From: Planctomycetota bacterium
Lineage (GTDB): Bacteria; Planctomycetota; Planctomycetia; Pirellulales; UBA1268
Direction: 5' to 3'
Length of the DNA: 64,000 nt
NCBI GenBank assembly: GCA_016872555.1
Contig: VGZO01000018.1
Span: 1-64,000 of the forward strand
The notes under the pieces were generated by a model. It ran no database searches. It worked only from the letters and a program-made list of their open reading frames with translations, and had not been told where the DNA came from. The translations under genes were made by a program, and so were the position numbers. Below, piece by piece: positions 3,523-45,170 of the stretch. Each line of letters begins with the position of its first letter. The first letter of the stretch is position 1.

Positions 3523-3550
3523 GCCGGTCGGACGGCGGGCGTCTCGATGC

Positions 3551-8585: not shown

Positions 8586-8760
8586 GCTCGCACCCGCAGG
8601 CTCGCCGACGACTTACCGTAGTCCCGGCCGCCACGCGCCGATCGGGCCGTCACCGGGCTCGTTTCAGCATACGCAGCGGCACCCGCCGGGCGACGGTGCT
8701 CTCCCTCCGGCAGGATAAAACCGCCCTCCACCCCGCTCAAGCGGCCGGTCGGTGGCCGGC

Positions 8761-8796
8761 TGCCAGCCTCACTCGGTCTGCCAGCCCCACTCGGTT
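8761..8796. repeat. tandem 18-bp direct repeat beside a MocA gene stop
   Basis: Two adjoining 18-base units, TGCCAGCCTCACTCGGTC and TGCCAGCCCCACTCGGTT, differ at two positions and end 1 base before the stop codon of the minus-strand oxidoreductase. A 15-base stretch GGCCGGCTGCCAGCC occurs at 8754-8768 and again at 8807-8821, the second copy inside the last codons of that gene. The pattern suggests local duplication of the gene's 3' end. Confidence 0.7.
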
Positions 8797-8797
8797 C

Positions 8798-10198
8798 TCA
8801 CACCCAGGCCGGCTGCCAGCCATCGCGATACCCCTTGGTGACACAGGCGCTCGCTCCGGCATGGCCGGCAAGCGTCAGGGCCGCGGAGTCCCAGGTGAGC
8901 AGGGCCCCCGGGTGGCGGGCGGCGATCGTCCCGAGCAACACCGCCTCGGTGAGGGGTCCGGAGTAGGCAAAGGCGCTGGTCGTATGGTCGGTGCCCCGGA
9001 TCGCGTCGATCCAACTCGTGTAGTGGTCGCGGGCCGCCTCGGGCTCAATCGTGACCTCGGTGAACTTCGCCACCGGCACGAAATAGGGCATCGCGAAGTG
9101 GGGCACGACGAGGCTCGCAGCCGTGCCGATGATCACCGAGCCCGAGCCGGGCAGTGCCCCCTCCGCGCCATCCTTTCCCGGCGGCAGGTCTCCGGCGACG
9201 AGGCCGAGGGTGTCGAGCGAAGGCTTGTGCCCCGGCCCGTCGTACCACGTCACGTCGACCGTCGGGCCGGCGGTGCGCGGCGTGCCGGGAAACGTCCAGC
9301 GGACGGCCGACTTGGTGTACCAGACCTCGTCGTTCATCGGCGTCGCCTCGGCGCGGACCGAGAGCGGCGCCGTCAGGCCCAGCGCCATGAACACCGGATC
9401 GAGGATGTGGCAGCCGAAGTCGCCGAGTTGGCCGTTGGAAAATGCCTGCCACCCGCGCCAATTGAACGGATGGTAGATCTCCGGCTGGAACGGGCGCTGC
9501 TCGGCGACCCCGAGCCATTCGTCCCAGTGCACTCCGGCCGGCACGTCGGCACCGCCCGCAGGGCGATCGTCGAGCTTCCGCCACGGCATCCCCCCCGACT
9601 GCCACGAATGGACCGCCGTGACCTTCCCCAGCTTGCCGTCGTGGACGAGTTTCACCGCGGTGCGGTACGAGGGGTGCGACTGGATCTGGTTGCCCATCTG
9701 GGTCACCAGGCCGAAGCGCTCCGCGGCCTGCCGCAATTGCCGGGCCTCGAACACGGTGTGGGTCAGCGGCTTCTGGCACTGGACGTGCTTCCCGAGGTGC
9801 ATCGCCGCCAGCGCCGGCGCGGCGTGCATGTGGTCGGGGGTCGAGACGATCACGGCGTCGAGCGCGCCCGGGTCGTCGAGCAGCTTCCGCCAGTCGGTGT
9901 AGGTCTTGGCCATCGGGAACTTCTCGGCGGCGTTGCCGAGGTGGCCCTTCGACTCGTCGATGTCGCATAGCGCGACGACGTCGGCGTGGGGGCTCTTGGC
10001 GGTGTCGAGCAGGTCGGAGAAGCCCTTGCCGCCGCAGCCGATCGACGCGATCCGTACCCGCTCGTTGGCACCGTAGGCCCGCGCCCAGCCCCGGGCCGAC
10101 AGACCGGCGGCGATTCCGCCGGCGAGCACCTTCCGGCGCGAAACGGCGTTGGCCGCCGGCCCCGATCGTGAAAACCCACGAGTCTTCCGCGCTGTCAT
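8798..10198 (-). CDS. Tat-exported Gfo/Idh/MocA family oxidoreductase
   Basis: A 466-residue NAD(P)-dependent sugar oxidoreductase of the Gfo/Idh/MocA family. The N-terminus carries a twin-arginine signal (SRRKVLAGG, then a hydrophobic stretch to about residue 40). A Rossmann fold follows with RIASIGCGGKGFSDLL, acidic residue ALCDID and the segment VQCQKPLTHT, where QKP replaces the classic EKP, as in many planctomycete homologues. I chose ATG 10198 because GGGAGG lies 7 bases upstream and the Tat motif then falls at the right place. The frame stays open upstream only as antisense. It stands as a single gene between the CRTAC1 operon and rtcB. Substrate is unknown; family members act on sugars, inositols or glycoside derivatives. 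Confidence 0.9.
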   Translation of the reverse strand: MTARKTRGFSRSGPAANAVSRRKVLAGGIAAGLSARGWARAYGANERVRIASIGCGGKGFSDLLDTAKSPHADVVALCDIDESKGHLGNAAEKFPMAKTYTDWRKLLDDPGALDAVIVSTPDHMHAAPALAAMHLGKHVQCQKPLTHTVFEARQLRQAAERFGLVTQMGNQIQSHPSYRTAVKLVHDGKLGKVTAVHSWQSGGMPWRKLDDRPAGGADVPAGVHWDEWLGVAEQRPFQPEIYHPFNWRGWQAFSNGQLGDFGCHILDPVFMALGLTAPLSVRAEATPMNDEVWYTKSAVRWTFPGTPRTAGPTVDVTWYDGPGHKPSLDTLGLVAGDLPPGKDGAEGALPGSGSVIIGTAASLVVPHFAMPYFVPVAKFTEVTIEPEAARDHYTSWIDAIRGTDHTTSAFAYSGPLTEAVLLGTIAARHPGALLTWDSAALTLAGHAGASACVTKGYRDGWQPAWV

Positions 10199-30786: not shown

Positions 30787-32442
30787 TCAGTGGTTCCAGC
30801 CGAACTCGACGGAGTTGGTCAGTGCCCAGAACAGGTCCTGCATCCCGCCGCCGCGGTCGGGGGCGGCGGTGATCAGCGAACGCGTCGCGGAGCGTTCCTC
30901 TGGAGAAGGATGGCGCGTGAGGACGGTGAGGAACGCGAGGTCGAGGCGCTGCTCGTCGTCGGCGGCGAGGCCGGCGATCCGGCCCGGCGCGGTGAACGGG
31001 TTGGCCTCGACCAGCTCGCGGGCCAGCCGGCCATTCATGCGGACGAGCGTCTGCGGAATCGTGGCCGGCTGCCGGTCCCCGTTGGCATCCTCGGTGGGGC
31101 CGTAATCGCGGAGAAAATCGACTTCGCGGAAGAACCGGATCGTCCGTGTCAGCAGATGGGAATCGCGGTCGATCGTCCGCAGGCTCGTCGCCTGGACGAG
31201 GGCGGCGATCATCACGTCGGGGCCCAACGGCGTGACCGGAAACGCGCCCCAGGCGGCGTCGAGGCGCGTCGCGCCGTCGGGCTCGGCGCGGAGCGGATGA
31301 CGGCTGGAGAGGTGGAACGGCCGCGCCCGGGCGAGGATCGAGAGCAACCGCCGGAGGTCGCAGCCGTGCTCCCGGAAGTCCTCGGCGAGCAGGTCGAGGG
31401 GATCGCGCGGGTCGGGGTCGGCGGGCGGATCGGGGAGGTCGTCGAGCGGCTCGTGGAGCCCGCGGCCGTAGACGATCGCCCACGCGCGGTTGACCACCGC
31501 GCGGTGGAAGCGGCGATTACGCGGGTCGACGAGCCAGGCGGCGAGGTTCTCGCGGTGCGTCCTGCGCTCCGCCTGCCAGTCGTCGCCGTAGGGGACGCGC
31601 GGCGGCACTTTCCGGCTCTTCGGCGCCATCGCGGCCGCGCCGCCGTCGGCCGGCGCGGGCAGGTCGATCGACAGCACGCGGGCAGGATCGTCCTCGACAC
31701 CCAGGCCGGTGACCCGGACCTGGCCGAAACAGGCGGCGAGCCCCTCGTATTGCCGCTGCGTGATCGGTGCGAAGGGATGGTCGTGGCACTGGGCGCAGTC
31801 GATCCGCTGGCCGAGGAGGACCCGCGCCACGCGCCCCGCCAGCACGTTGGCGTCGAGGGTGCCGTCGGCCATCGCCTGTGTGACGAAGTTGACCTCGGGG
31901 GCCTCGGTCCACAGGCCACCGTGGGCGACCATCGCGGTCACCGTCCGGTCGAACGGGTCGTTGGCCAGCAGCCGCGCGGCGAGCCAGTCGGTGAACCGAT
32001 CGCGGCGGAAGACGATGACCTGGCCGGCGGCATCGCCGACCAGCGCGTGGGCCAGGCGCCGCGCGAGGTGGTCGGCACTCCGCCGGTCGGCGAGGACCAG
32101 CGCGATCCAGCGCCCGAGGCGGCCGGGATCGCCATCGGCCTCGAACCGGCGGATCTCCTCGACCGAGGGGATCGTGCCCGCCAACCCGAGCCAGGCGCGC
32201 CGGAGCACCTCGAGATCGTCGGCGCGCCCTGCCGGCTCGATCCCCGCGGCCCGCCACCGCTCGGCCAGCGCGGCGTCGAGCCGGCTCACCGTCGCCTCCG
32301 ACCCGTCGGGCGCGACGGCGGGCGGGGGGGCGAGCGCCGACGCGGGAAGCGGGTCGCGGGCCCCGGAGGCGAGGACGACCGCGACGGTCGTCAGGGCGAC
32401 GGCCGGTAGCAGGGCGCGGAGGATCTGCCGGTGGGACGGCAT
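30787..32442 (-). CDS. DUF1549/DUF1553 family cytochrome-type protein
   Basis: A 551-residue exported protein, first gene of the block. A signal peptide (ALLPAVALTTVAVVLASGA) leads into DUF1549, with LARRLAHALVG, AMVAHGGLWTEAPEVNFVTQ and the single CxxCH CAQCHDHPFAPITQRQY (about residue 217). DUF1553 follows, with HRENLAAWLVDPRNRRFHRAVVNRAWAIVYGRGLHEPLDDL and the C-terminal MNGRLARELVEANP. It lacks the PSCyt1 domain and the long coiled insert of the other member. Paired with the DUF1501 gene that follows. It is divergent from a membrane protein gene over about 200 bases. Confidence 0.92.
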   Translation of the reverse strand: MPSHRQILRALLPAVALTTVAVVLASGARDPLPASALAPPPAVAPDGSEATVSRLDAALAERWRAAGIEPAGRADDLEVLRRAWLGLAGTIPSVEEIRRFEADGDPGRLGRWIALVLADRRSADHLARRLAHALVGDAAGQVIVFRRDRFTDWLAARLLANDPFDRTVTAMVAHGGLWTEAPEVNFVTQAMADGTLDANVLAGRVARVLLGQRIDCAQCHDHPFAPITQRQYEGLAACFGQVRVTGLGVEDDPARVLSIDLPAPADGGAAAMAPKSRKVPPRVPYGDDWQAERRTHRENLAAWLVDPRNRRFHRAVVNRAWAIVYGRGLHEPLDDLPDPPADPDPRDPLDLLAEDFREHGCDLRRLLSILARARPFHLSSRHPLRAEPDGATRLDAAWGAFPVTPLGPDVMIAALVQATSLRTIDRDSHLLTRTIRFFREVDFLRDYGPTEDANGDRQPATIPQTLVRMNGRLARELVEANPFTAPGRIAGLAADDEQRLDLAFLTVLTRHPSPEERSATRSLITAAPDRGGGMQDLFWALTNSVEFGWNH

Positions 32443-32633
32443 CGCGGTGGCTCCCGGGAACAGACGGTCCGGATTCTACCCCACGGGCCGTCCGGCAGCC
32501 TCCCCGACCCGGTGGCCGCCTCCACCCGCCATGGCCGCCCGCGGCGCCGACACGGCACGGGCACCGACACCGGAAGATCGTCATCGCGGCCGGTCGCGAC
32601 CGCCGGGAAACGACGGCGGCGCGGCGCCGAACC

Positions 32634-32639
32634 TATCAT
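32634..32639 (+). promoter_or_regulatory. -10-like hexamer placed for leaderless transcription of the membrane protein gene
   Basis: TATCAT ends 7 bases before ATG 32647, and no Shine-Dalgarno is present. No good -35 is visible in this very GC-rich stretch. Confidence 0.35.
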
Positions 32640-32646
32640 CAACCCC

Positions 32647-33846
32647 ATGGCCACCGCGCTCCCGTCCGCGCTCTCCGCTGCGACCGCTCCCCCCCGCGTC
32701 GCCGGCGCGCCGGCGCAGCCGTTCGGCGAGCTCGCTCCCTGCCCACACCCGCTGCGGCATCCGCTCCGCGCGCTGGGCTGGCTGATCGCCGTCGGCGCGG
32801 GGCTGGCGAGCCTCGTCTGGCTCCTCTCGCTGCTGGCGGCGATCCCGCTGGTGAGCTTCCTGGCGCTCGGTTACATGCTCGAGGGGGAGGGGCGCGTGGT
32901 CCGCAGCGGGCGGCTCCGCGACGGCGTGCCGCTGCTCGGCGGTCTGCCGCGGTTGGGGGCGGTGGTGGTCGGCACCTGGTTCTGGGTGCTCGTCGTGCGG
33001 TTCGTGACGTCGGTGGCCGCCGACGCCGCGCTCGTGGCGCCGGGGAGTCCTTCAGCCGCACGCTGGGCCGTGGCCCGCACGCTCGTCGCGCTGGTGGTCG
33101 GCCTCCACGTCGCGCTGGCGTGGCGGGCCGGCGGCAGTCTGGCGTCGTTTTTCCGTCCGCTCCGCAACGTCCGTGCGGCGCGCCGCCAGTGGCGCGCCGG
33201 CACGCTGTGGAGCGGTGCGGCCGACGGTCTCGCCGCCGTGATCGGCGCGATCCGCCCGCTCCATCTGCTCCGTCTCGGCGTCGGTGGCTTCGCCGGTGCG
33301 CTGGCGTGGCTGCTGCTCCCGACCCTGGCCTTTTCGGCGCTGCGCGACACCCAACACCCCGGAGCGGTGCTCGTGACCCTCGCCGGTGGGGTCGCCTTGG
33401 CGGTCGTCCTCGCCTGGGTCCCGTTGCTCCAGGCGACGTACGCGACCGAGGGGCGGCTGCGCGCGTTCACGGAGGTGGCTCGCGTCCGCGAGCTTCACCG
33501 CCGCGCGCCGGTGGTGCTGCTGGTCGCGCTGGCCGTCCTCTACGGCCTGTCGCTGCCGCTGTTCCTTCTCAAGGTGATCGCGGCGCCGCGCGACGCGGTG
33601 CTGCTGCTGACGCCGCTGTTCATCGTCACCATTTACCCCGCGCGGCTGCTCGTCGGCTGGGCGACGGCCTTCGCACGCCGCCGGCCGCAGCGGCGCTGGC
33701 TCGTGGTCCGGTTCGGTGCCGGGGCCGCGCTGGTGGCAGCGCTGGGCCTGTATCTGTTCCTGCTGTTCTTCACCCCGGCGATCGGCGCCCTCGGCCGCCG
33801 GGTCCTCCTCGACCACCACGCGCTGCTCCTCCCGACGCCGTTCTGA
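32647..33846 (+). CDS. polytopic membrane protein, planctomycete family of unknown function
   Basis: A 399-residue protein with about seven or eight hydrophobic segments, for example WLIAVGAGLASLVWLLSLLAAIPLVSFLALGYMLE, WFWVLVVRFVTSVAADAAL, VLLVALAVLYGLSLPLFLL and AALVAALGLYLFLLFFTP. The string SFLALGYMLEGEGRVVRSGRLRDG, split here by the membrane boundary, resembles a family seen widely in planctomycetes but not functionally named. No catalytic motif is evident. The start at 32647 is favoured by the hydrophobic pattern and the -10-like element at 7 bases; no ribosome site is seen. It is convergent with the cyclase-repeat gene across a 57-base gap that holds a hairpin. Confidence 0.8.
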   Translation: MATALPSALSAATAPPRVAGAPAQPFGELAPCPHPLRHPLRALGWLIAVGAGLASLVWLLSLLAAIPLVSFLALGYMLEGEGRVVRSGRLRDGVPLLGGLPRLGAVVVGTWFWVLVVRFVTSVAADAALVAPGSPSAARWAVARTLVALVVGLHVALAWRAGGSLASFFRPLRNVRAARRQWRAGTLWSGAADGLAAVIGAIRPLHLLRLGVGGFAGALAWLLLPTLAFSALRDTQHPGAVLVTLAGGVALAVVLAWVPLLQATYATEGRLRAFTEVARVRELHRRAPVVLLVALAVLYGLSLPLFLLKVIAAPRDAVLLLTPLFIVTIYPARLLVGWATAFARRRPQRRWLVVRFGAGAALVAALGLYLFLLFFTPAIGALGRRVLLDHHALLLPTPF

Positions 33847-33885: not shown

Positions 33886-33905
33886 GACCGGCCAGCGGGC
33901 CGGTC
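33886..33905. terminator. bidirectional hairpin between convergent genes
   Basis: GACCGGCC-AGCG-GGCCGGTC is a perfect 8-bp stem with a 4-base loop that overlaps the stop codon of the cyclase-repeat gene and lies 39 bases after the membrane protein stop. Position suggests a bidirectional terminator; no T-tract is seen. Confidence 0.4.
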
Positions 33906-36111
33906 ACCGGCCGGCCGGCGCTGCGCCGCTGCCGGGGGGCGCGAGATCGTAAGTCGGCAGGCGGCGCGACGGGACCTCGAGCGCCAACAGGTGGAGCGCG
34001 GTCACGTACACCCGCCCCCCGTAGCCGCCCCAGCGATCGGGGATCCCACCGAGCGGATCCCAACTCCCCTCCACCGCCCCCGACCGCTCCTGCCGCGCTT
34101 CGAGCAGCCGGCACAGCGCCTTGTACCACCGCTCCCAGTCGCTGCCGCCGGTGTGGACGAGGACCTGCGAGGCGTAGTACCAGAGGTAGGCGTCGCGGCG
34201 CCGCACCTGCCGCGTGCCGTACGACGGCTCGAACGCCGCCAGCGCCGCGGCGGCGTCGCGGACGGCCGGGTCGTCGACGGGCGTGCCGGTGTGGAGCCGC
34301 ATCAGCGTCCCCAGCGCCGTCATGCAGGCGATCGACAAGTCGCTCGGGCGCTGCTGCGGATTGCCGACGTTGTACACGTAGCGGCGCGCCGCGATCCCGG
34401 TGCCCGCGTCCGCTCCCGCCGACGACGCCTCGACGAACGTTCGCACGTGCGCGATGGCCGCGGGGTCGATGGCGATCCCGGCCAGCTGACCGGCACGGAG
34501 CGCGACGAGCATCCAGCCGCTCACCGACAGGTCGGCATCGGAGCGGGGCGTGTAGCGCCAGCCGCCGCGCTCGGGGTGCTGGCTGGCGGCGATGAACGCG
34601 CAGGCCTTCTCCGCGGCGGGGCGGAGCAGGGGATCACCCGTCATCCCGACCGCCTCGCACAGCGCCATCGTGCCGATGGCGTGGCTGTAGAGCCATGCGC
34701 AGCTGTCGGAGAGGGGGTCGGACGCGACGTACAGGTCGCCGTCGGGCTTCTGGGTGCGCGCGAGCCATTCCAGACCACGGCGCACCGCGTCGTGGTGCGG
34801 ACCGTCGAAATGGTCGTAGCCGGCGCCGAGGAAAGCCAGCAGCGCCAGGCCGGTGGCAGCGGTGTCGCTGCGGAGCTTCGTGACCTGCCGTGCCGCCGGG
34901 TCGGCGCTGCCGTCGAGCGACCAGCTCCCGTCAGGGCGTTGGCCCCGCGCCAGGAAGGCGAGGCCGCGCTCGATCATCCGATCGGCGGGCCCGTCGGCGA
35001 GGCGCCCCGACGAGCGGCCCGCGTAGGGCCGGGCGATCGAGCGCACGCGCCCCTCGGAGGGGAGGACGACCGCCGCGGCGCGCGGCAGCGTGACGGCGGC
35101 CACGGCGCCTGGGACCTGTCCCCGGCTCGGCGCTGCCGCCGCGCGGCGCGGCTGCGCGAGCGGCGGCAGCGATTCGGCCGACAGCGCCTCCTCGTCGCCG
35201 CCGCGCGGTGCCGTGACCGCGCCCCCCGCTGCCGCGGCCGTCGGCCGCCGCGCTGCCGGGCGGACGCCCAACTCCGCCAGCGAGCCCGTCGCGCCGCGTG
35301 GCCCGCCCGGCGCGGCCATCGCGGGAGCCGGAGGGAGCGCCGCGACCCGCCCCGCGCCCGCGTCGACCGCAATCGGCTCGCGCCGGTTGACACCGTCGGG
35401 CGCGGGGACGACGGCGCTCGGCCGGGGACGCCTCGAGACGCTCGGCGCCAGTGCGGCCGACAGCCCTACGCCGTCGCGCTCGGCCGCCAGCGGCGGCGGC
35501 GCTGCCGCGACGGGCTCGGCCAGCGCCGCAGCGCCGCCCCGCGTCGCCGGCCGCAGCTCGATCGCGCCATCGGCCAGCGCAGCGGGTGCGGGGAGCTCGG
35601 GCGTTACATCCGCGGCCGTCAGGTCCGGCTCGGCGGCGATCCGCGCAAGCGCCGCCGGTGCGGGCATGGCGTCGTCGGCTGCCGACTCGGGGCGCGCGAC
35701 GTCCGCAGCCGCCGGCACGAACGCCTCCGCGGCCGCCGGAGCGCCGGGATCGGTCGCGGTCGGCAGCGCATCCCGGACCGTGCCATCGGCAGCGAGCGCC
35801 GCGTCGAGGAGCGGCTCGAGCGGCCGCTCGTGGGCCGACTCCGCCCGGGGATCGTCCGCGACCGAGAGCGTGAACTCGCGGGGCACCGGCCGGGATCGCT
35901 CGCGCTCGGGGACGGGGGCCGGGGCGTCGGTCGCCAGCCGCAGCGGCGTCCGCGCCAGGCCCCCAGCGAGCCAGGCATGGGCGGCAAGGCTCGCCAGCAA
36001 CGCGAGGCCGAGACGGAACCGATTGCGCCACACGGCGGCGCGGAGGCCGCGCGACCCGCTGGCGGGGGAAACGGTGCCGACGGCTGGCGCGAGACGCTCC
36101 ATCGCGGTCAT
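33904..36111 (-). CDS. TonB-like membrane anchor plus squalene-cyclase-type repeat protein
   Basis: A 735-residue protein with an N-terminal transmembrane segment (FRLGLALLASLAAHAWLAGGL, about 32-52), in the style of TonB/TolA, then a 300-residue Ala/Pro-rich, low-complexity linker (about 55-370). The C-terminal third, from about residue 385, carries repeats of the prenyltransferase/squalene cyclase alpha-alpha toroid: RGLAFLARGQRPDGSWSLDG, RRGLEWLARTQKPDGDLYV, WLYSHAIGTMALCEAVGMTG, ERGGWRYTPRSDADLSVSGWMLVAL. Classical DxDD or QW cyclase chemistry is not obvious. It is the last gene of the TPR-ExbB-ExbD operon, starting just upstream of the ExbD stop (1 base between). I infer an energy-coupled periplasmic protein, with the cyclase-like domain probably binding rather than cyclising. 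Confidence 0.85.
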   Translation of the reverse strand: MTAMERLAPAVGTVSPASGSRGLRAAVWRNRFRLGLALLASLAAHAWLAGGLARTPLRLATDAPAPVPERERSRPVPREFTLSVADDPRAESAHERPLEPLLDAALAADGTVRDALPTATDPGAPAAAEAFVPAAADVARPESAADDAMPAPAALARIAAEPDLTAADVTPELPAPAALADGAIELRPATRGGAAALAEPVAAAPPPLAAERDGVGLSAALAPSVSRRPRPSAVVPAPDGVNRREPIAVDAGAGRVAALPPAPAMAAPGGPRGATGSLAELGVRPAARRPTAAAAGGAVTAPRGGDEEALSAESLPPLAQPRRAAAAPSRGQVPGAVAAVTLPRAAAVVLPSEGRVRSIARPYAGRSSGRLADGPADRMIERGLAFLARGQRPDGSWSLDGSADPAARQVTKLRSDTAATGLALLAFLGAGYDHFDGPHHDAVRRGLEWLARTQKPDGDLYVASDPLSDSCAWLYSHAIGTMALCEAVGMTGDPLLRPAAEKACAFIAASQHPERGGWRYTPRSDADLSVSGWMLVALRAGQLAGIAIDPAAIAHVRTFVEASSAGADAGTGIAARRYVYNVGNPQQRPSDLSIACMTALGTLMRLHTGTPVDDPAVRDAAAALAAFEPSYGTRQVRRRDAYLWYYASQVLVHTGGSDWERWYKALCRLLEARQERSGAVEGSWDPLGGIPDRWGGYGGRVYVTALHLLALEVPSRRLPTYDLAPPGSGAAPAGR

Positions 36112-36112
36112 C

Positions 36113-36544
36113 TCACGGCGGGGGCGGCCGGTCGTCGCTGACCGACTGCACGTGGTAGTCCTCGATTCCCGCCAGCACGCAGGCGTTCATCGCGCCGACG
36201 ACGAACTTGTGGGGAACCTCCTCGTCGGCGCGGAGGATCACCCGTTGGCCGGCGGGCTGGTCGGCGGCCGCCTGGCGGAGGAGCCGCTCCAGTTCGTCGA
36301 GCTCCACCGGCCGCGCGCCGGCGTGGTAGGCGCCGGACCGGTCGATGTTGATCACGAACTCGGGCACGCGCGTCGTCAGCGGGCGGGCAGCGCTGCCCTG
36401 GGGGAGGACGACGTCGATCACGCGATCGGCCTCCTCGAGCCGGCTGGCGACGAGAAAGAAGATCATCAGCAGGAACACGACGTCGATCAGCGGCGTCATC
36501 TCGAGCCCCGCGCCGAGGCGCCCCTTGTCGATGCGGACGCTCAT
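36113..36544 (-). CDS. ExbD/TolR family biopolymer transport protein
   Basis: A 143-residue ExbD/TolR protein: a short cytoplasmic N-terminus, one transmembrane helix with the essential aspartate (MTPLIDVVFLLMIFFLVAS), and a periplasmic domain. With ExbB it forms a proton-driven motor that energises a TonB-like partner. The start overlaps the ExbB stop by 4 bases (ATGA at 36541-36544), and it ends 1 base before the cyclase-repeat gene start. The frame is open further upstream only in shadow. Confidence 0.93.
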   Translation of the reverse strand: MSVRIDKGRLGAGLEMTPLIDVVFLLMIFFLVASRLEEADRVIDVVLPQGSAARPLTTRVPEFVINIDRSGAYHAGARPVELDELERLLRQAAADQPAGQRVILRADEEVPHKFVVGAMNACVLAGIEDYHVQSVSDDRPPPP

Positions 36545-37248
36545 GGCGCGCTCCCCACGCGGCCACCGGCGCCGGCCGGTTCGCCACGCCCGGCAAGCGC
36601 CGTGCGGGGCCGAGGCTCCGCCCCCTCGAGCGCCGCGACGAGCGGCCCGACACACGCGTCGACACGGCGGAAGCCACCCATGATCCGCCCCTCGAGGAGG
36701 TGGGCGATGACCGCCGCCGGAATCGCCACGCACAGTCCGGCAAACGTCGTGATCAGCGCCACGTAGATCCCCGAGGCGAGCTCGGCGGCGCGGTTGGCAC
36801 CGGCCTCGAGCTGGGCGGTGGTGTAGAAGGCGAGGATCATCCCCTGCACGGTGCCGAGCAGACCGAGGAGCGGCGCCACCTGGACCGCCAGGGCGATCGG
36901 GCGGATGTTGGCATACAAGGCCGCCGCCTCGCGCTCCTTGGCGACCTCACCGGTCCGCTCGATCTCGGCCGCGGGGCGTTCGGCCCGGGCGACGACCGCG
37001 CGGACGACGTTGGCAGCGACGCTCGGGCGCCGGGCGCACAGGTCGAGCAGGGCGTGGGTGTCGACCGGGCGGGAGCCCGCCAGCCGGTCGACCTCGTCGG
37101 CGAACCGCCAGGGCACGAACCGCCCCGGGCGCAGCGCCAGGATCCGCTCGAGCGTGAAGGCGACGACGATCACCGACAAGGCGGCGATCGGCCACATCAA
37201 CGGCCCCCCGGCGAGGAACATCTGCCAGAGGTTGGTGACGTCGTTCAT
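36541..37248 (-). CDS. MotA/TolQ/ExbB family proton channel protein
   Basis: A 235-residue ExbB/TolQ protein with three hydrophobic regions: GPLMWPIAALSVIVVAFTLERIL, then PIALAVQVAPLLGLLGTVQGMILAFY and GIYVALITTFAGLCVAIPAAVIAHLLE, the family's two channel helices. It forms the pentameric proton channel of Exb/Tol motors. Start at 37248 overlaps the TPR gene stop by 4 bases. The C-terminal tail is unusually Ala/Gly/Arg-rich. Operon order: TPR, ExbB, ExbD, TonB-like/cyclase. Confidence 0.93.
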   Translation of the reverse strand: MNDVTNLWQMFLAGGPLMWPIAALSVIVVAFTLERILALRPGRFVPWRFADEVDRLAGSRPVDTHALLDLCARRPSVAANVVRAVVARAERPAAEIERTGEVAKEREAAALYANIRPIALAVQVAPLLGLLGTVQGMILAFYTTAQLEAGANRAAELASGIYVALITTFAGLCVAIPAAVIAHLLEGRIMGGFRRVDACVGPLVAALEGAEPRPRTALAGRGEPAGAGGRVGSAP

Positions 37249-40200
37249 CGTTTCTCCTCGTCGCGCCCCGGCGCCGCGGTCGCGGCGCCGAGCGCGGCCA
37301 GCCGCTTCCGAGCCGCCGCCAGCTGCGGTGAATCGGGATGTTTTTCGACCAGTTCGCCGTACAGCTTCCGCGCCTGATCGGGCTGCCTGAGGACCTCGAA
37401 GCACCGCGCCGCCTCGAACAGCGCCTGCCCCTGCCAGGGGCGGTAGTCGGCCCCCTCGGCCGTCCCGTAGGCGACCTTGAAGAAGCTCCGGATCGCCTCG
37501 TCGTGGCGTCCCTCCTCGAACAGCACCTCGCCTTCCATCAGCCGGGCCCGCGCGGCCAACGGCGTCGTGGCCGCGTCGGCCAGCGCCCGGAAGCCCTCGC
37601 GCGCGGCGGCGAGCTGGCCGAGTTGCTGGCGTGCCGCCGCTGCGGCATACGCGGCCTGCGCGGCCGTGCCACCGGCCGCCTCGGCGTCGGGAAGCGCCGC
37701 GCGGGCGCGCTCGGCGAGGTCGAGGCTGTCCTGCCAGGCGTCCTGGCGGGCCGCGGCCTCGGCGGCGCGGAGCAACGTCACCGCGCGGAGGCCGTCGCTC
37801 GAGATCCGCTCCGGCTCGGCGAGCGCCTCGGCGAGCGCCTTGCGCGCCTCGTCGACGCGTCCGAGGGCGAACAGCGACTGGCCGAGCAGTGCCCGGCCGT
37901 CCACCGCCCACGGCCCCTGCGGTGCCGCGGCGATCTGCCGGGTGAATTGCGCGGCTGCCGCGGCATGGTCGCCACGCAGGGTGTGGACCCAGCCGAGCTT
38001 GTGGCGGGCCTGCTCGGCGATCGCCGCACCCGCCGGCGGCGCCGCGGCGAGTGCTTTCTCGTAGGCGGCGGCAGCGGCATCGGGGCGGTCGTCGAGGAAG
38101 GCGATCTCGCCGCGCTCGAGCCACGCGGCCGCCACCAGCGGGCTACGCGGGAAGGTATCGACGAGCCTCGTGAACGATTCCTCGGCCGCCGTCGGATCCC
38201 CAGCCGCGAGCGCCGCCAGGCCCCGTTCCCAGCAGACGCGATCACCGGCGGGAAAACCCGGGTCGTCGCCGACGAGCCGGTCGAGCAGCGCCAGCGCCTC
38301 TCCCGCGCGGCCGACCGCGGTCAGGCAGGTGGCGGCCACCAGCCGCGCTTCGCCGAGCGCGCGCGGATCGAGCGGCCTGCTGCCGTCGCCATGGGCTGCC
38401 AGCAGGCGCTCGGCGTCGGCGAGCCCGGCGGCCGGATCACCCGAGCGGGCCCGGGCGTCGGACCGGGCCAGCAACGCCGACGTCGCCGCTGACGAAGCAG
38501 GATAGCGCTCGATCGCAGCCGTCCACGCGGCGATCGCCTCCGGGAGCCGACTGGCGCGCTCGTGGCACCAGCCCGACGCGGTCAGGCTCGGCGCCGCCCG
38601 CGGGCCCTGCGGCGCGAGGCGCAGCACCTCGGCGAACGCTTCGAGCGCCTCCTCGGCGCGGCCGGCCGCCATCCGCGCCTGGCCGAGTCGGAACGCCACC
38701 TGCTCGCGCGAGCCCTCCGGCACGCGGCCCGCCGCGAGCCGCTCGGCGAGCTCGAGCCCCCCCGCCGCATCGCCCCCGTCGAGCCGGGCGCGGATCGCGA
38801 GCAGGTCGCGGTCGACGGCGCGCGTCCCCGGCGGAACGGCGCGGGCGAGCCGCTCGAGGATCACCAGGGCGTCGCGCGGCTGTCCGAGCTCGACCGCCGC
38901 GGTCGCCTCGAGCAACAGCGCTTCGGCACGGGCCTCGGGCCCGGGGCGGGTCTGGTCGAGAGCGGGCAGGGCGCGGGCGAGCTGGTCGCGGGCCGCCTTC
39001 CAGTCGCCGCCGGCGCCGAGCGCGGCGGCCTGGCGCACGAGCCAGGCGCCGGTGCGTGCGTCGGCGGGATGGTCCTCGGCGAGCCGTGCGAACGCGTTCA
39101 CGGCCGCCGCCGTGTCGCCCGAGGCGAGCAGCGCCTCGGCGCGGATCGCGGCGACGTCGATCCGGAGCGGGTCGCCTGCCGGGGCGGCGGCGAGCAGCGC
39201 GTCGGTCTCCGAAATGGCCTCGGCCGTCCGCCCCGCCTCGAGCGCGGCGAGGGCGAGCACGGCCCGCGCACTGGCGGCGGCGCCGTCGCCGGGGTGGTCG
39301 CCGACCACCTTCCGGTAAGCGGCCTCGGCATCGGCACGGCGATCGGGGAGCTCCCATAGCGCGTCGGCCCTCGCCAAGTGGAGCGCGGCGACGCCAGCGG
39401 GTGCGGCCGACGGAACCCCTACGGCAAGCCCGAGACCGCGCTCGGCCGCGGCGAGCGCCTCGGCGGCGCGGCCCTCGGCCAATTCGACCCGCGACAGCTC
39501 GGCGGCCGCCTCCAATGCGATCGGGGCGCCGGACCCGACGAGCTTCATCAGCCGCGCCCGTGCCGCCCCCGTATCGCCGGCGGCGGTGAGCGCCCGCGCG
39601 GCGAGGAGCGCGCCACGGGCGGCGAGCGGCGAATCGGCGTGGCGATCGGCGAGGCGGCCATAGGCTTCCGCGGCCCCCTTCCAATCGGCCGCCTTCCATC
39701 GCGCCGCGCCGATCCGCTCGAGCGCGGCGTCGGCGCGCGGTCCGCTCGCCAATGGCAGGAGGAGCTTCTCGGCGGCGCGTGGATCGTCGGCGACGAGCAG
39801 ATCGGCACGGCGGAGGGCCACGTCGGCGGCGAGCGGATGCGCCGGGAACAGCTTCGCGAACCGGCCGAGCGTCGCCAGCGCCGCACTCCCGTCGCCGGCC
39901 TCCGCTTCGGCCACGCCCAACGAATGGAGGACGTCGGCGAGACGGGGCGTGGCGGCGGCACGCGAGTCGGGGATCGGCGCGGCGGCCTCGCGCCACGCCG
40001 CCAGCGCACCCTCCCGATCACCGGCCTGCCAGCGGGCCTCGCCGAGGTACCAGCGGGCCTCGGTGTCGAGGCCCGGCGGGACTCCGGCGGCGACCGTCTC
40101 GCCGAGCAACGCGGCGGCCGCGCCGTAGTCGGCCGGCACCGCGGTCGCCTGGGCGGCGACGAGCGTGCCCTTGGCCCATTCGAAGCGGGCCAGCGCCACC

Positions 40201-40571
40201 GTCTCGGCGTCGGCACCGGCCTGGGTCACGACCCCGCGAAAGGCTTCGGCCGCCGCCGGCCAGTCGCCGAGCTTCGCGCGACAGATCCCGAGTTGGTACT
40301 GCGCCTTGGCGACGAGCGCGTCGGCGGGATGGTCGCGGAGCAGCGCCTGCCACTCCTGTGCCGCCAGATCCCAGGCACCCCGATTTTGCAGTGCGGCGGC
40401 CGATGCATAGGCCGCCCGCGCGGCGACGCTCGGCACCGGCTCCGCGGCGCCGGCACCGGCGGCGAGCACCAGCGCCAGGCAGGCTGCGGCACGGACCACG
40501 AGGCTGCGGCGGCCGGGACGACGACCCCCCACGCCCCGGGGCGGAACGGACACCACAGGCATCGCACTCAC
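37245..40571 (-). CDS. large secreted TPR-repeat protein, first gene of the ExbB/ExbD operon
   Basis: A 1108-residue protein, nearly all TPR-like helical pairs after a signal peptide (LVVRAAACLALVLAAGAGAAEP, about 22-45). Examples are LGICRAKLGDWPAAAEAFRGVV, LGEARWQAGDREGALAAWREA and ARCFEVLRQPDQARKLYGELVEKHPDSPQ. I read no enzyme motif. About 25 repeats fit the length. The ATG at 40571 or 40562 could both serve. Its stop overlaps the ExbB start by 4 bases. TPR periplasmic proteins such as YbgF/CpoB also accompany Tol systems, so I infer a scaffold working with the Exb motor. Divergent from the esterase gene over about 150 bases. Confidence 0.9.
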   Translation of the reverse strand: MSAMPVVSVPPRGVGGRRPGRRSLVVRAAACLALVLAAGAGAAEPVPSVAARAAYASAAALQNRGAWDLAAQEWQALLRDHPADALVAKAQYQLGICRAKLGDWPAAAEAFRGVVTQAGADAETVALARFEWAKGTLVAAQATAVPADYGAAAALLGETVAAGVPPGLDTEARWYLGEARWQAGDREGALAAWREAAAPIPDSRAAATPRLADVLHSLGVAEAEAGDGSAALATLGRFAKLFPAHPLAADVALRRADLLVADDPRAAEKLLLPLASGPRADAALERIGAARWKAADWKGAAEAYGRLADRHADSPLAARGALLAARALTAAGDTGAARARLMKLVGSGAPIALEAAAELSRVELAEGRAAEALAAAERGLGLAVGVPSAAPAGVAALHLARADALWELPDRRADAEAAYRKVVGDHPGDGAAASARAVLALAALEAGRTAEAISETDALLAAAPAGDPLRIDVAAIRAEALLASGDTAAAVNAFARLAEDHPADARTGAWLVRQAAALGAGGDWKAARDQLARALPALDQTRPGPEARAEALLLEATAAVELGQPRDALVILERLARAVPPGTRAVDRDLLAIRARLDGGDAAGGLELAERLAAGRVPEGSREQVAFRLGQARMAAGRAEEALEAFAEVLRLAPQGPRAAPSLTASGWCHERASRLPEAIAAWTAAIERYPASSAATSALLARSDARARSGDPAAGLADAERLLAAHGDGSRPLDPRALGEARLVAATCLTAVGRAGEALALLDRLVGDDPGFPAGDRVCWERGLAALAAGDPTAAEESFTRLVDTFPRSPLVAAAWLERGEIAFLDDRPDAAAAAYEKALAAAPPAGAAIAEQARHKLGWVHTLRGDHAAAAAQFTRQIAAAPQGPWAVDGRALLGQSLFALGRVDEARKALAEALAEPERISSDGLRAVTLLRAAEAAARQDAWQDSLDLAERARAALPDAEAAGGTAAQAAYAAAAARQQLGQLAAAREGFRALADAATTPLAARARLMEGEVLFEEGRHDEAIRSFFKVAYGTAEGADYRPWQGQALFEAARCFEVLRQPDQARKLYGELVEKHPDSPQLAAARKRLAALGAATAAPGRDEEKR

Positions 40572-40723: not shown

Positions 40724-42601
40724 ATGTCTTTCCCCGTGCGTTCCCTGGCAGCGTCGTTCCCCCGGTCGCGGGTCTTCGCGCCGCGCCCCGCCACCGTCGC
40801 GCAGGCGACGGCGCGGCTGGCGGTGGGAGTCGCGCTGGCCGCCGCGGCAGCCTGCGGGCAGGCCGCGTTCGCCGACCCCCCGGCCGGCGAGGTGCTCCAG
40901 TTCTCGTTCGAGAACAGCCGGATTTTCCCCGGCACGTTCCGTGACTACTGGGTCTACGTCCCGCGGCAGTACGACGGCACGACGCCGGCCTGCGTCCATG
41001 TCAACCAGGACGGGATCCAGTTCGACGCCCCGAAGGTCTTCGACCGGCTGATCGACGAAAAGAAGATGCCGGTCACGATCGGCGTGTTCGTGATGCACGG
41101 CCGCGTCAGGGCGGCCCGGCCGGACGCCCTCGACCGGTTCAACCGCAGCTACGAATACGACGGCCTCGGCGGCGATTACGCCCGCTTCCTTCTCGACGAA
41201 CTGCTCCCCGACGTCGAGAAACGCACGACCTCGGACGGGAGGAAGATCGTCCTCTCCAGGGCCGGCAACGACCGGGCGATCGCCGGCACCAGCAGCGGCG
41301 CGATCGCCGCCTTCACCGCCGCCTGGGAGCGCCCCGACGCCTTCACGCGCGTGTTCAGCGGGATCGGCACCTACGTCGGCCTCCGCGGTGGCCACGGCTA
41401 TGCGACGCTCGTGCGCAAGACCGAGCCGAAACCGATCCGGATCTTCCTCCAGGGGGGATCGAACGACCTCAACATCTACGGCGGCGACTGGTGGATCGCC
41501 AACCAGGCGCTCGAGCGCTCGCTCTCCTTCGCCGGCTACGACGTGCGCCACGAGTGGGGCGATGGCGGCCACAACGGCAAACATGCCACAGAGCTGTTTC
41601 CCGCCGCCGTCGAGTGGCTGTGGCGTGACTGGCCGCAGCCGGTCGCACGCGGCGCGGGGAGCAGCCAACTGCAGGACATCGTCGCCGCCGGCGGGAGCGG
41701 ATGGGAACGGGCGACGAGCCTCGCCGGGTTTGCCGCCACCGTCGATCCGACCGGTCGCCCGGCGCTCTTCCACCGGGAAACCAAGACGGTCGACGGCGTG
41801 GGGCGGGCCGAGACGACCTGGACGGAGATCGGACTCCCCGGCAGCACGCCGCGCGACGGCGGGCCGCTCGTCGCCACACCGCCCGGGATGGTCAGCTCGG
41901 CCCAGATCTGGCGTCCCGACGGGACGCTCGTCGTCGCCCAGGAGCCGGCCCCGGCGCCCGACGGGCGCCGGCAGGTGACGCTGGTGGTGTGCGAGCCCGG
42001 GCGGGCGCGGCCGCTGGCCCAGCTGCCACCGGGGCGCGTCGGCGCCCTCGCCGTGCGCGCCGACGGCAGCCTGTATGCGACGCTGGCGGGCACCGGCCCC
42101 GAAACACCCTCGCGCGTCGTCTTCATCCCGGCCGCGGAAGAGGCGCCGCGCGTCGTCGCCACGCTTCCCGGTCCGGCAGTCGCCACGGGCGTCTGTCTGT
42201 CGCCGGACCAGAACCTGCTGTATGTCGCCGACGGCGCGTCGCACTGGGTCCACAGCTTCGTCGTGGCCGCCGACGGCACGCTCGCCGACGGGCAGAAATA
42301 CTTCCACCTCCACGTGCCCGACACGAGCGACGACGCCGGCGCCGACGGGCTCGCCGTCGACCGCGACGGGCGCCTCTGGGTGGCGACCGCCATGGGGCTG
42401 CAGGTCTGCGATCAGGCGGGGCGCGTGAACGTGATCCTGCCGCTGCCCGACGGCGCACGGCCGACGAGCGTGGCCTTCGGCGGACCGGAGTTCGACTCCG
42501 TCGTGGCGACCACCGACACCGGCGCGTTCACACGCCGGCTGAAGGTCCGCGGCGCGCCCGGCTGCCTGCCCCCGAGCCTGCCGGCGAAGCCGCGACTGTG
42601 A
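40724..42601 (+). CDS. secreted esterase (Fes/EsteraseD-like) fused to an SMP-30/gluconolactonase-like domain
   Basis: A 625-residue exported protein. The signal peptide (LAVGVALAAAAACGQAAFA) is followed by an esterase-D-like alpha/beta-hydrolase (about 50-315) with YWVYVPRQYDGTTPACVHVNQDG, the nucleophile motif GTSSG (Ser 190) and a His region GGHNGKH. Residues about 330-625 form a beta-propeller (SSAQIWRPDGTLVVAQEP, CLSPDQNLLYVADGASHWVHSF, GLAVDRDGRLWVATAMG) of the SMP-30/gluconolactonase type. GGAG lies 9 bases before ATG 40724. Enterochelin-esterase-like and gluconolactonase-like units in one chain suggest a polysaccharide- or ester-degrading exoenzyme; both activities are inferred. The frame continues upstream but is shadow. 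Confidence 0.88.
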   Translation: MSFPVRSLAASFPRSRVFAPRPATVAQATARLAVGVALAAAAACGQAAFADPPAGEVLQFSFENSRIFPGTFRDYWVYVPRQYDGTTPACVHVNQDGIQFDAPKVFDRLIDEKKMPVTIGVFVMHGRVRAARPDALDRFNRSYEYDGLGGDYARFLLDELLPDVEKRTTSDGRKIVLSRAGNDRAIAGTSSGAIAAFTAAWERPDAFTRVFSGIGTYVGLRGGHGYATLVRKTEPKPIRIFLQGGSNDLNIYGGDWWIANQALERSLSFAGYDVRHEWGDGGHNGKHATELFPAAVEWLWRDWPQPVARGAGSSQLQDIVAAGGSGWERATSLAGFAATVDPTGRPALFHRETKTVDGVGRAETTWTEIGLPGSTPRDGGPLVATPPGMVSSAQIWRPDGTLVVAQEPAPAPDGRRQVTLVVCEPGRARPLAQLPPGRVGALAVRADGSLYATLAGTGPETPSRVVFIPAAEEAPRVVATLPGPAVATGVCLSPDQNLLYVADGASHWVHSFVVAADGTLADGQKYFHLHVPDTSDDAGADGLAVDRDGRLWVATAMGLQVCDQAGRVNVILPLPDGARPTSVAFGGPEFDSVVATTDTGAFTRRLKVRGAPGCLPPSLPAKPRL

Positions 42602-42623
42602 CGCCTGACGAACGGCCGCCGTG

Positions 42624-45170
42624 ATGAACCAGCCCCCGCCACGGGAACCGCTGCCGCCGTGGGCGGCCGACCTGCCCGTCCGCGCGGTGCTCGACGACGT
42701 CGTCGCCGCGTCGCGCGGCGGTGCGGCGGTGGTCGTCGCCCCGCCGGGATCGGGCAAGACGCTGCTGGTGCCGGCGGCGCTCGTCGACGACCTCGGGGGC
42801 GCCGCGGTGATCCTCGTCCAGCCGCGGCGCCTCGCGGCCCGGGCGGTGGCGGCACAGATCGCGCGGCTCCGCGGCGGCGCGCTCGGCGACGAGGTCGGCT
42901 ACCAGGTGCGTTTCGACACCTGCACGTCGCGGGCCACGCGGCTGTTCGTCGAGACGACCGGGATCGTCCTCCGCCGGCTCCTCGACGACATCGCGCTGCC
43001 GGGCACCGGCGCCGTCGTCCTCGACGAGTTTCACGAGCGCTCGGTGGAGATGGACCTCGTGTTCGGTCTCCTGCGCCGCGTCCGCGAGTCGCTCAGGCCC
43101 GACCTGCGGGTCGTCGTCACCAGCGCCACGCTCGCGGCCGGCCCGGTGGCGGCTGCGCTCGGGGGCTGCCCGGTGATCGAGGCGGCCGGGAGGATGTTTC
43201 CGGTCGAGGTCGTCCACCACGGGCGCGGGCCGCGCCGCGAGCTGGTCGAGATGGTGCGGCCGGCCGTCGAAGAGGCACTCGGGCGCACGCCCGGGCACGT
43301 GATCGTCTTCCTGCCGGGAGTCGGTGAGATCGCCGCCTGCCAGCGCGATCTCGACGGACTCGCCGCGCGCGGCGGCCACGACCTCCTCCCGCTCCACGGC
43401 GACCTCCCCCCCGAGCGCCAGGACGCGGCGCTGGCCGAGACCGGCCGGCGAAAGATCATCCTCGCGACCAACGTCGCCGAAACGTCGCTGACGATTCCCG
43501 GCGTGACCGCGGTGGTCGACTCGGGTCTGGCACGGCAGCTGGTCGTCAATCCGGCGACCGGTCTGCCGCGCCTCGAGCTGGTGGGCATCTCGCGGGCCGC
43601 CGCCGACCAGCGCGCCGGCCGCGCGGGGCGCACGGGGCCGGGGCGAGCCGTGCGGCTGTGGACCGAGGCGGAGCACGCTGGCCGCCCCGCCGCCGAGACC
43701 CCCGAGATCCTCCGCAGCGACCTCGCCGGGCCGCTCCTCTGGCTCGAAACACTCGGCGAGGCGACCGACTTTCCCTGGCTCGATCGCCCCTCCGAGGAGG
43801 CCCTGGCGACCGCCCGCCGGGTGCTCGAGCGCCTCGGCGCGGTCGATGCCGACGGGCGCGTGACCGCACAGGGACGCGAGATGGTGCGGCTCCCGACCCA
43901 TCCCCGGCTCGGCCGGATGCTGATCGAGGGGGCGGCGCGGGGCGTGCTCCGGGAAGCCTCGATCGCGGCGGCGCTCGTCTCCGACCGGGATCCGTTCCGC
44001 CGCGCCGCCCATGCCGGAGGGGGCCCGCGCGACAGGCGCCAGGTGCGCTCACGCTGCGACGTCGCCGACCGCGTCATCGCCCTCCAGGCGTTTCATGCCG
44101 GCGCTGCCGCCGACGATCCCGCCCTCGAGCCCCACCCGCCGGCGGCCCGGGCGGTCCTCCGCGCCGCCGAGCAGCTGTTCCGGATGGCACCCGGCCCGCT
44201 CGGCCCGCGGAGCGCCGACCCGCGCGAGGCGCTGGCACGCTGCCTGCTGGTGGCGTTTCCCGACCGGCTCGCGCGCCTCCGCGCCGGGTCGGGAGACAGG
44301 GGCACGCTCGTCGGCGGGCGCGGCGTGCGCCTCACCGAGCCGTCGCGCGTCAGCCACGAAGCGCTGTTCCTTGCCGTGGACATCGACGACGCGCGGGGCG
44401 AGGCGCGGACGCGGCTGGCAACCGCCGTCGAGCGCGCCTGGCTCGACGACCCGACCACGGCGGCCAATCTCCATTCCGCCGACGAGATCGTCTTCGACCC
44501 GGGCCGGCGCCGCGTCGCCGGACGGCGGCGGACGCGGTGGATCGATCTCGTACTCGACGAGGCGCCGCTGCCGGTCGGCGCCGGCCTTGCCGCCGAGGCG
44601 GCCGCGGTCCTTGCCGCCGAGGCGCTGGCCCAGGCACAGCGCTGTTTCCCGGCAGCCGATTCGGCGCCGGGGCGCTTCCGCGCCCGGGTCCGCTGGCTTG
44701 CCGGACTCGTTCCCGACCTCGGCCTCCCGCCGCTCGACGACGGGCAACTCGCCGGCCTGCTGCCCGACATCTGCCGGGGCCTCGAATCGCTCGACGACGT
44801 CGCCACCGCCGACTGGCGGCCGCGCCTCGAGGCCCTCGTCGGTCATGACCGGCTCCACCTCGTCGACCGGCTGGCACCCGACACGATCGCGCTGCCGGCG
44901 GGGCGGCGAACGCGCGTCGACTATCCCGCCGGCGGTCAGCCACAGGTCGCGGCCCGGATCCAGGACTTCTTCGGGCTCGCCGAATCCCCGCGGATCGCCG
45001 ACGGACGCGTCGCGGTGGTCCTGCAGCTGCTCGGCCCCGATCAGAGGCCGCGCCAGGTGACTTCCGACCTGGCGGGATTCTGGCGGACCACCTATCCGGG
45101 ACTGCGGCGCGAGCTGGCCCGGCGCTATCCGAAGCACGCCTGGCCCGAGGATCCCCTGGCGGCGCGGTGA
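42624..45170 (+). CDS. hrpB: ATP-dependent helicase HrpB
   Basis: An 848-residue DExH-box helicase of the HrpB family. Walker A APPGSGKT is at 39-46 (GSGKT 42-46), then QPRRLAAR, the DEFH box (VVLDEFHERS), SATL, LPGVGEI, TNVAETSLTIPG and the QRAGRAGRTGPGR motif VI. The C-terminal half carries the HA2 and HrpB-specific regions to the ending PKHAWPEDP, characteristic of HrpB. ATG 42624 was preferred to the GTG at 42621; both are in frame, and the preceding gene stops 22 bases upstream. Role in E. coli is unknown; likely RNA remodelling. Confidence 0.95.
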   Translation: MNQPPPREPLPPWAADLPVRAVLDDVVAASRGGAAVVVAPPGSGKTLLVPAALVDDLGGAAVILVQPRRLAARAVAAQIARLRGGALGDEVGYQVRFDTCTSRATRLFVETTGIVLRRLLDDIALPGTGAVVLDEFHERSVEMDLVFGLLRRVRESLRPDLRVVVTSATLAAGPVAAALGGCPVIEAAGRMFPVEVVHHGRGPRRELVEMVRPAVEEALGRTPGHVIVFLPGVGEIAACQRDLDGLAARGGHDLLPLHGDLPPERQDAALAETGRRKIILATNVAETSLTIPGVTAVVDSGLARQLVVNPATGLPRLELVGISRAAADQRAGRAGRTGPGRAVRLWTEAEHAGRPAAETPEILRSDLAGPLLWLETLGEATDFPWLDRPSEEALATARRVLERLGAVDADGRVTAQGREMVRLPTHPRLGRMLIEGAARGVLREASIAAALVSDRDPFRRAAHAGGGPRDRRQVRSRCDVADRVIALQAFHAGAAADDPALEPHPPAARAVLRAAEQLFRMAPGPLGPRSADPREALARCLLVAFPDRLARLRAGSGDRGTLVGGRGVRLTEPSRVSHEALFLAVDIDDARGEARTRLATAVERAWLDDPTTAANLHSADEIVFDPGRRRVAGRRRTRWIDLVLDEAPLPVGAGLAAEAAAVLAAEALAQAQRCFPAADSAPGRFRARVRWLAGLVPDLGLPPLDDGQLAGLLPDICRGLESLDDVATADWRPRLEALVGHDRLHLVDRLAPDTIALPAGRRTRVDYPAGGQPQVAARIQDFFGLAESPRIADGRVAVVLQLLGPDQRPRQVTSDLAGFWRTTYPGLRRELARRYPKHAWPEDPLAAR

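Follow-up and report, generated by a model that had tools for sequence, protein, structure and literature searches.

A planctomycete ExbB/ExbD operon that likely encodes a force transducer with a cyclase-type toroid head

What might a proton-driven ExbB/ExbD motor move when the protein encoded in the place of TonB ends in a ring of the squalene-cyclase type? The question is raised by the first 64,000 nucleotides (here called the window) of contig VGZO01000018.1, from a planctomycete of the order Pirellulales (assembly GCA_016872555.1). On its minus strand, genes for a TPR protein, ExbB, ExbD and a toroid protein follow one another in this order, where an initial annotation made from the sequence had placed them. 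We consider it likely that they encode a force transducer of the Ton/Tol type, driven by protons, whose toroid head is new and binds a ligand. Such a machine would do mechanical work in the cell envelope and has probably not been described before. The four genes, with product lengths in amino acids (aa), are:

40571..37245, minus strand: TPR protein gene, first in the operon, GTG start, 1108 aa
37248..36541, minus strand: ExbB gene, ATG start, 235 aa, ATGA overlap with the TPR gene
36544..36113, minus strand: ExbD gene, ATG start, 143 aa, ATGA overlap with the ExbB gene
36111..33904, minus strand: toroid protein gene, ATG start, 735 aa, one-base gap after the ExbD stop

The two ATGA overlaps and the one-base gap agree with the initial annotation, which had described four minus-strand genes with overlapping or one-base junctions; the TPR gene terminates in CGATGA, which contains the ExbB start. 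The gene identities proposed there are supported by structure prediction and by Pfam matches with scores above the curated cut-offs. ExbB matches MotA_ExbB at 82 bits, ExbD matches PF02472 (ExbD) at 83 bits, the TPR protein matches many TPR models, and the toroid protein matches SQHop_cyclase_C over residues 376-459 (35 bits against a cut-off of 26.1). Along the toroid protein, the following parts were delimited:

33904..36111, minus strand: putative toroid-headed TonB/TolA-like transducer, 735 aa, assigned from Pfam, the docking motif and AlphaFold2 (AF2)
35956..36018, minus strand: the one N-terminal transmembrane helix, residues 32-50 or, delimited more widely, 32-52, which carries Ser41-x3-His45 and Leu52 from the SHLS pattern
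34987..35955, minus strand: Ala/Pro-rich linker, residues 53-375, predicted from its composition to span the periplasm
35848..35883, minus strand: candidate ExbD-contacting segment, residues 77-88, P-REFTLSVADD-P, from its fit to the D-box pattern
33946..34986, minus strand: alpha-alpha toroid domain, residues 376-722, with a squalene-hopene-cyclase fold without DXDD

The TonB/TolA-like character of the N-terminal helix had been a guess; a Ser-x3-His docking motif was found there. S41, H45 and Leu52 are present and the last Ser of SHLS is replaced by Pro56. Ser-x3-His corresponds to the Ser and the His in the SHLS motif used by TonB and TolA to dock on ExbB/TolQ. In the N-terminal half of 13 operon proteins (26-34% identical to the window protein), S41 and H45 are invariant, and the only other invariant columns are two prolines in the poorly aligned linker. 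S-x3-H occurs in the last transmembrane region of 52 of 55 linked proteins (53 by a second count), against 5.2 expected by shuffling. An enlarged set of 118 motor-linked toroid proteins was reduced to 83 clusters at 60% identity. Over these clusters the His site is occupied by H79/N3/L1 and the Ser site by S71/C5/A4/G3, with column entropies of 0.32 and 0.82, respectively, against 1.6-3.9 in neighbouring columns. The motif is less uniform in the wider set, where an automatic check failed in 17 of 63 cases because Ser is replaced by C, G or A and His, in three, by Asn; a lone protein (L207) lacks the docking motif. The natural His-to-Asn swaps are found in L144, L156 and L204. In 2011, Swayne and Postle reportedly found that Asn is able to replace TonB His20 fully, and the three variants are noteworthy for this reason. 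Together with the matching ExbB residues, they could usefully serve to test the TonB/TolA docking model on evolutionary grounds.

On ExbB, the Ser and Pro that face this helix are conserved. An ExbB pentamer and an ExbD dimer form the inner-membrane motor. In the window ExbB, Ser25, Pro126, Thr133, Thr168 and Pro177 correspond to the conserved Ser34, Pro141, Thr148, Thr181 and Pro190 of ExbB/TolQ, so that the pore Thr and the kink Pro are present, and the transmembrane motif of ExbD (MTPLIDVVFLL) carries the proton-carrying Asp (D21). TonB Ser16 and His20 contact ExbB Ser34 and Trp38, and Trp38 touches Pro190 (PMC12215075). Among 86 toroid-linked ExbBs, the two residues that connect TonB/TolA with the pore (PMC12215075) are retained, Ser in 82 and Pro in 84, whereas the same Pro is kept in just 29 of 47 ExbBs without a toroid link. 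In an ExbD tree, which was built on few columns and has several long branches, toroid-linked ExbDs cluster, and the toroid label needs 4 changes as against 34 in shuffles. Docking of the toroid protein on this motor is thus well supported by sequence conservation on both partners.

The gene set recurs widely. The toroid domain is found in 256 of 294 genomes of the phylum, often as several paralogues, and within the order to which the window belongs, the surroundings of the top matches show the arrangement TPR-ExbB-ExbD-toroid. PF02472 was detected in all 118 genomes searched in the class, and 80 listed loci were examined across Planctomycetia; a toroid gene lies directly downstream of ExbD in 42 of them (25/36 in the own order, 15/25 in f4, a second large family, and 0/14 in family f100). 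Because the listed loci are those of the best-scoring ExbDs, the fractions should not be read as rates for the whole class. A second, toroid-based sample, sharing a few genomes with the first, comprised the best 80 toroid relatives in named genomes, all of which are planctomycetes; 71 loci had upstream DNA. Among these listed matches, ExbD is adjacent in 63, ExbB in 56 and TPR in 49, a TPR homologue lying upstream of ExbB in 49 of the 56 loci that have ExbB. Both samples bear out the co-occurrence with ExbB/ExbD in other planctomycetes that the initial annotation had suggested, and since dozens of genomes keep the gene order at 25-35% identity, the arrangement is not due to chance. The second sample includes Rhodopirellula, Rubripirellula, Stieleria, Neorhodopirellula and Blastopirellula marina, the last being one of the cultured relatives with the system. 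In Rhodopirellula baltica, an exbB/exbD pair (RB12053/RB12055) is reported to respond to high salinity by induction (PMC2754498). When the flanking genes were clustered, TPR alone was widely recurrent (54 loci; the next cluster, 10), and no division, envelope or substrate-pathway gene is conserved in the surroundings of the sampled loci. ExbB or TPR is sometimes missing from a locus, which makes ExbD and the toroid protein the tightest pair.

The head itself was modelled by AF2 from 113 aligned domains, with a predicted local distance difference test (pLDDT) score of 91.9 and a predicted template modelling score of 0.92. The top VIA-align match of the model is squalene-hopene cyclase (2sqc; Z 26.8, 293 aligned residues, root-mean-square deviation 3.3). 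Next in rank are single-domain relatives and drimenyl diphosphate synthase, with further alpha-alpha toroid enzymes behind them; the rows for unrelated toroid enzymes were taken as evidence of the fold only. AprG occupies the top Foldseek rows from the PDB, and no functional reading was drawn from it. In Pfam, SQHop models alone match the protein, with neither TonB_C (PF03544) nor a vWA domain. Prediction, structure alignment and Pfam thus concur with the proposal that a C-terminal cyclase-type toroid takes the place of the TonB C-terminal domain. Inspection of the cyclase catalytic residues revealed that DXDD is not formed by any invariant position and that DxDD anywhere in the domain occurs, incidentally, in 3 of 113 cases, so the catalytic motif of class II cyclases is absent. 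The protein also falls short of the NCBIfam hopene_cyclase equivalog (30.3 bits against a cut-off of 431.1). Hopanoid cyclase activity was considered and rejected on the absence of DXDD and of a linked pathway gene. Conservation of 95% or more across the 113 domains is seen at 44 positions, which include invariant Y, W, E, D and R. When inner and outer helices are assigned from helix alternation and not from coordinates, the share of such positions is 21% at the N-terminal ends of inner helices, falling to 10% elsewhere on inner helices and to 3% on outer helices. This pattern would fit a ligand site kept at one mouth of the ring, with packing of the QW type explaining part of it.

From these data we infer the docking itself, the transmission of force, the movement of the toroid, its location, its ligand and its physiological role, in a mechanism that might run as follows. 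The ExbB pentamer and ExbD dimer would provide the motor, and the toroid protein would stand in for TonB/TolA, its transmembrane helix docking on the outside of ExbB via Ser41 and His45. The segment just past the helix may touch ExbD. The linker, whose length and composition (about 320 residues, 27% Ala and 15% Pro) match the earlier description of a long Ala/Pro linker, would span the periplasm, and the head may grip a conserved ligand or partner at the peptidoglycan or the outer membrane. Proton flow would then pull or release the head, and the TPR superhelix may serve as a periplasmic partner or scaffold.

The initial annotation had suggested looking for an ExbD-contacting segment after the helix, and here the picture is less clear. 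The D-box consists of alternating hydrophobic and hydrophilic residues with flanking prolines (PMC10907165). In the window protein this pattern is fitted by FTLSVAD (residues 80-86), which lies between Pro77 and Pro88 and makes residues 77-88 a candidate. Two other patterns, both picked after looking, recur past the docking His, namely V-x-P-[DE]-Y at about 30 residues (35 proteins against 1.5 in shuffles) and aromatic-x-x-P-[VL] at about 50 residues (56 proteins against 4.3).

Several observations weigh against a motor-driven toroid. Family-wide, the D-box pattern, in generic and strict form, is not enriched (4 of 118 proteins against 5.1 in shuffles). In toroid-linked ExbBs, Val or Leu usually stands in for the docking-network Trp, and the window ExbB has Val there. 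Of the 42 ExbD-toroid pairs, 18 lack an adjacent ExbB; one of these 18 lies at the end of its contig. Motor genes are missing around several toroid paralogues, family f100 genomes have related ExbBD without a toroid neighbour, and the invariant residues on the pocket side would equally suit an enzyme. The last point leads to an alternative in which the toroid is an enzyme acting on an isoprenoid lipid or a glycan and tethered to ExbBD, the motor only localising it or gating substrate access and force being secondary. The concentration of conserved positions at the inner-helix ends would agree with this, as would the structural neighbours, which are enzymes (squalene-hopene cyclase, drimenyl diphosphate synthase, sugar 2-epimerases and GH76), and the presence of the same domain in the paralogues without motor genes. 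It is nevertheless unlikely, given that the class II DXDD is absent, that no substrate-pathway gene is conserved nearby, and that an enzyme would need neither the conserved Ser/His docking helix nor the long Pro/Ala linker.

The separated loci bear on another alternative, namely that the toroid protein is not energised at all, its gene being a passive neighbour of an ExbBD that merely conducts protons or serves another transducer. ExbBDs lacking a toroid neighbour would fit this. The ExbD-toroid pairing, however, is tight even where ExbB lies elsewhere, the junctions overlap or leave one base and the docking motif is preserved, which together render a passive neighbour very improbable. Pairs without ExbB occur in Blastopirellula-like genomes and in family f4. 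A Pfam search of six genomes with such pairs found 6-9 MotA/ExbB-family genes elsewhere, and in two (G121, G181) the nearest ExbB is tens of kilobases from the pair. Because ExbD-toroid pairs stand without a nearby ExbB, it appears that ExbDs have effectors as partners and share an ExbB in trans. Examples are L035, L040, L071 and L142 (Blastopirellula marina).

If the toroid protein is a force transducer, what could it serve? The window's own genome, 97.9% complete and with three MotA/ExbB loci, was searched for an ordinary TonB elsewhere: neither TonB_C nor a receptor plug (PF07715) was found, the plug being detected in E. coli, Caulobacter and Bacteroides controls. TonB_C occurs in just 3 of 12 other genomes with the toroid system, at a separate site. 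The role is most likely to be the coupling of outer membrane and wall, in a lineage whose own genome shows no classical Ton. Several more toroid paralogues lie away from motor genes in this genome, at least one with a Ser-x3-His helix; two orphan toroid proteins are in tandem (L049, G000:C38:24000-40000), with S-M-L-V-H in the transmembrane helix of one and Gln at the His site of the other. A second motor operon (L054, G000:C1:128000-144000, at 2527-9047) combines ExbB and two different ExbDs with a short TPR protein and with a 1115-aa protein that Pfam does not match; beside it, no transducer was recognised.

The TPR protein is the first product of the operon, and its N-terminus was delimited as follows:

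40443..40571, minus strand: signal-peptide-like N-terminus of the TPR protein, with a basic stretch, hydrophobic SLVVRAAACLALVLAA and AxA

AF2 predicts one continuous TPR superhelix of 54 helices (pLDDT 87.6), with low pLDDT at residues 1-21 and 34-43 around a helix at 25-37. The signal-peptide-like start fits the exported 1108-aa TPR protein envisaged at the outset. Homologues across loci are 23-32% identical to it. In a narrower version of the force-transducer reading, compatible with it, the operon replaces Tol-Pal in planctomycetes: a toroid-headed TolA analogue and a CpoB/YbgF-like TPR protein would couple the outer membrane to the wall in budding. TolQ and TolR are the best-scoring equivalog models for ExbB and ExbD, with both scores below the cut-off, and the TPR protein exceeds the tol_pal_ybgF cut-off, through generic TPR repeats only, which weakens the latter match. 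A TPR gene is also present in other motor operons of PVC (Planctomycetes-Verrucomicrobia-Chlamydiae) bacteria (PMC12204202), and an asymmetric outer membrane is argued for planctomycetes (PMC3422733). On the other hand, no division or envelope gene is linked to the operon, some genomes have several copies, unlike a housekeeping Tol, and OmpA-type domains exist. We regard this narrower version as possible, though somewhat doubtful.

Probable neighbours of the operon on both sides are encoded on the opposite strand (32431-33846 and an esterase/gluconolactonase-like frame at about 40850-42400, both on the plus strand), so the operon appears to comprise exactly four genes. Farther out, the window encodes a planctomycete PSCyt2/PSD1 (DUF1549/DUF1553) protein (30787-32442, minus strand) and an HrpB-type helicase (plus-strand frame 42621-45170). 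At the 38 ExbD loci without a toroid gene, the downstream gene has a convincing docking motif in L105 only. There a coiled-coil protein starting MKNIVLASVLIHVVLL follows an ExbD pair (L105:2535-5060) and is likely a TolA-like transducer of another architecture. Of the other downstream genes scanned, some lack a match and the rest encode VTT/DedA, TPR or PQQ proteins. In family f100, a gene for a VTT/DedA-family membrane protein is a recurrent neighbour, right after ExbB-ExbD (L102:4191-4895, L107:4264-4971, L120:6543-7208, L131:6541-7341, L130:6502-7374). L124, L126 and L138 have a different layout, in which about 1 kb separates an upstream toroid gene from an ExbB-ExbD-ExbD operon.

How does the proposed transducer compare with known systems? 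A literature search on planctomycete ExbD and squalene-type repeats, which covered few subscription papers, found no published description of toroid transducers. With TonB, the toroid protein shares an N-terminal transmembrane helix with Ser-x3-His, a Pro-rich periplasmic linker and co-encoded ExbB and ExbD; it differs in that the toroid replaces the TonB C-terminal domain, the genome has no receptor plug and a giant TPR protein is added. With TolA of the Tol-Pal system, it shares an SHLS-type helix, a motor operon and a TPR protein in the cluster (cf. CpoB/YbgF). However, the TolA C-terminal domain is missing, the linker is Ala/Pro-rich and not a TolA helix, and no tolB or pal was recognised beside the operon, no search aimed at TolB having been made. 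The protein would work like TonB/TolA yet belongs to neither family, because their defining C-terminal domains are absent. Squalene-hopene and single-domain class II cyclases (2sqc, 8paj, 8pak, MstE) have the toroid fold (Z 22.5-26.8), QW-like repeats and the SQHop_cyclase_C match in common with the head. Unlike them, the toroid protein lacks DXDD, has one toroid only, is anchored to the membrane on a long linker and is encoded with a motor.

A 2025 proposal for PVC bacteria (PMC12204202) is the closest published precedent: a class of vWA-headed transducers with an SHLS helix, whose genes lie beside those for TPR, TolQ and a pair of TolRs; toroid heads do not appear in that paper's section on new transducers. 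Both kinds have an SHLS transmembrane helix, a disordered linker, a non-TonB globular head and a TPR-TolQ-TolR neighbourhood, and they differ in the head, here a cyclase-type toroid, and in the number of ExbD genes, here one only, which lies between those for ExbB and the toroid protein. The chances seem about even that the toroid proteins form a third class of ExbBD/TolQR-driven transducer, in which a catalytically retired cyclase toroid, pulled by the motor, would bind an envelope ligand such as a polyprenyl or hopanoid lipid, a lipoprotein or a glycan. To the question of how planctomycetes power outer-membrane work, such an operon, its motor conserved and its head new, would be a candidate answer. 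If this is true, the range of effectors known for 5:2 proton motors would be widened and, alongside the vWA and TonB/TolA heads, the SHLS anchor would be a modular handle that has been fitted with unrelated heads.

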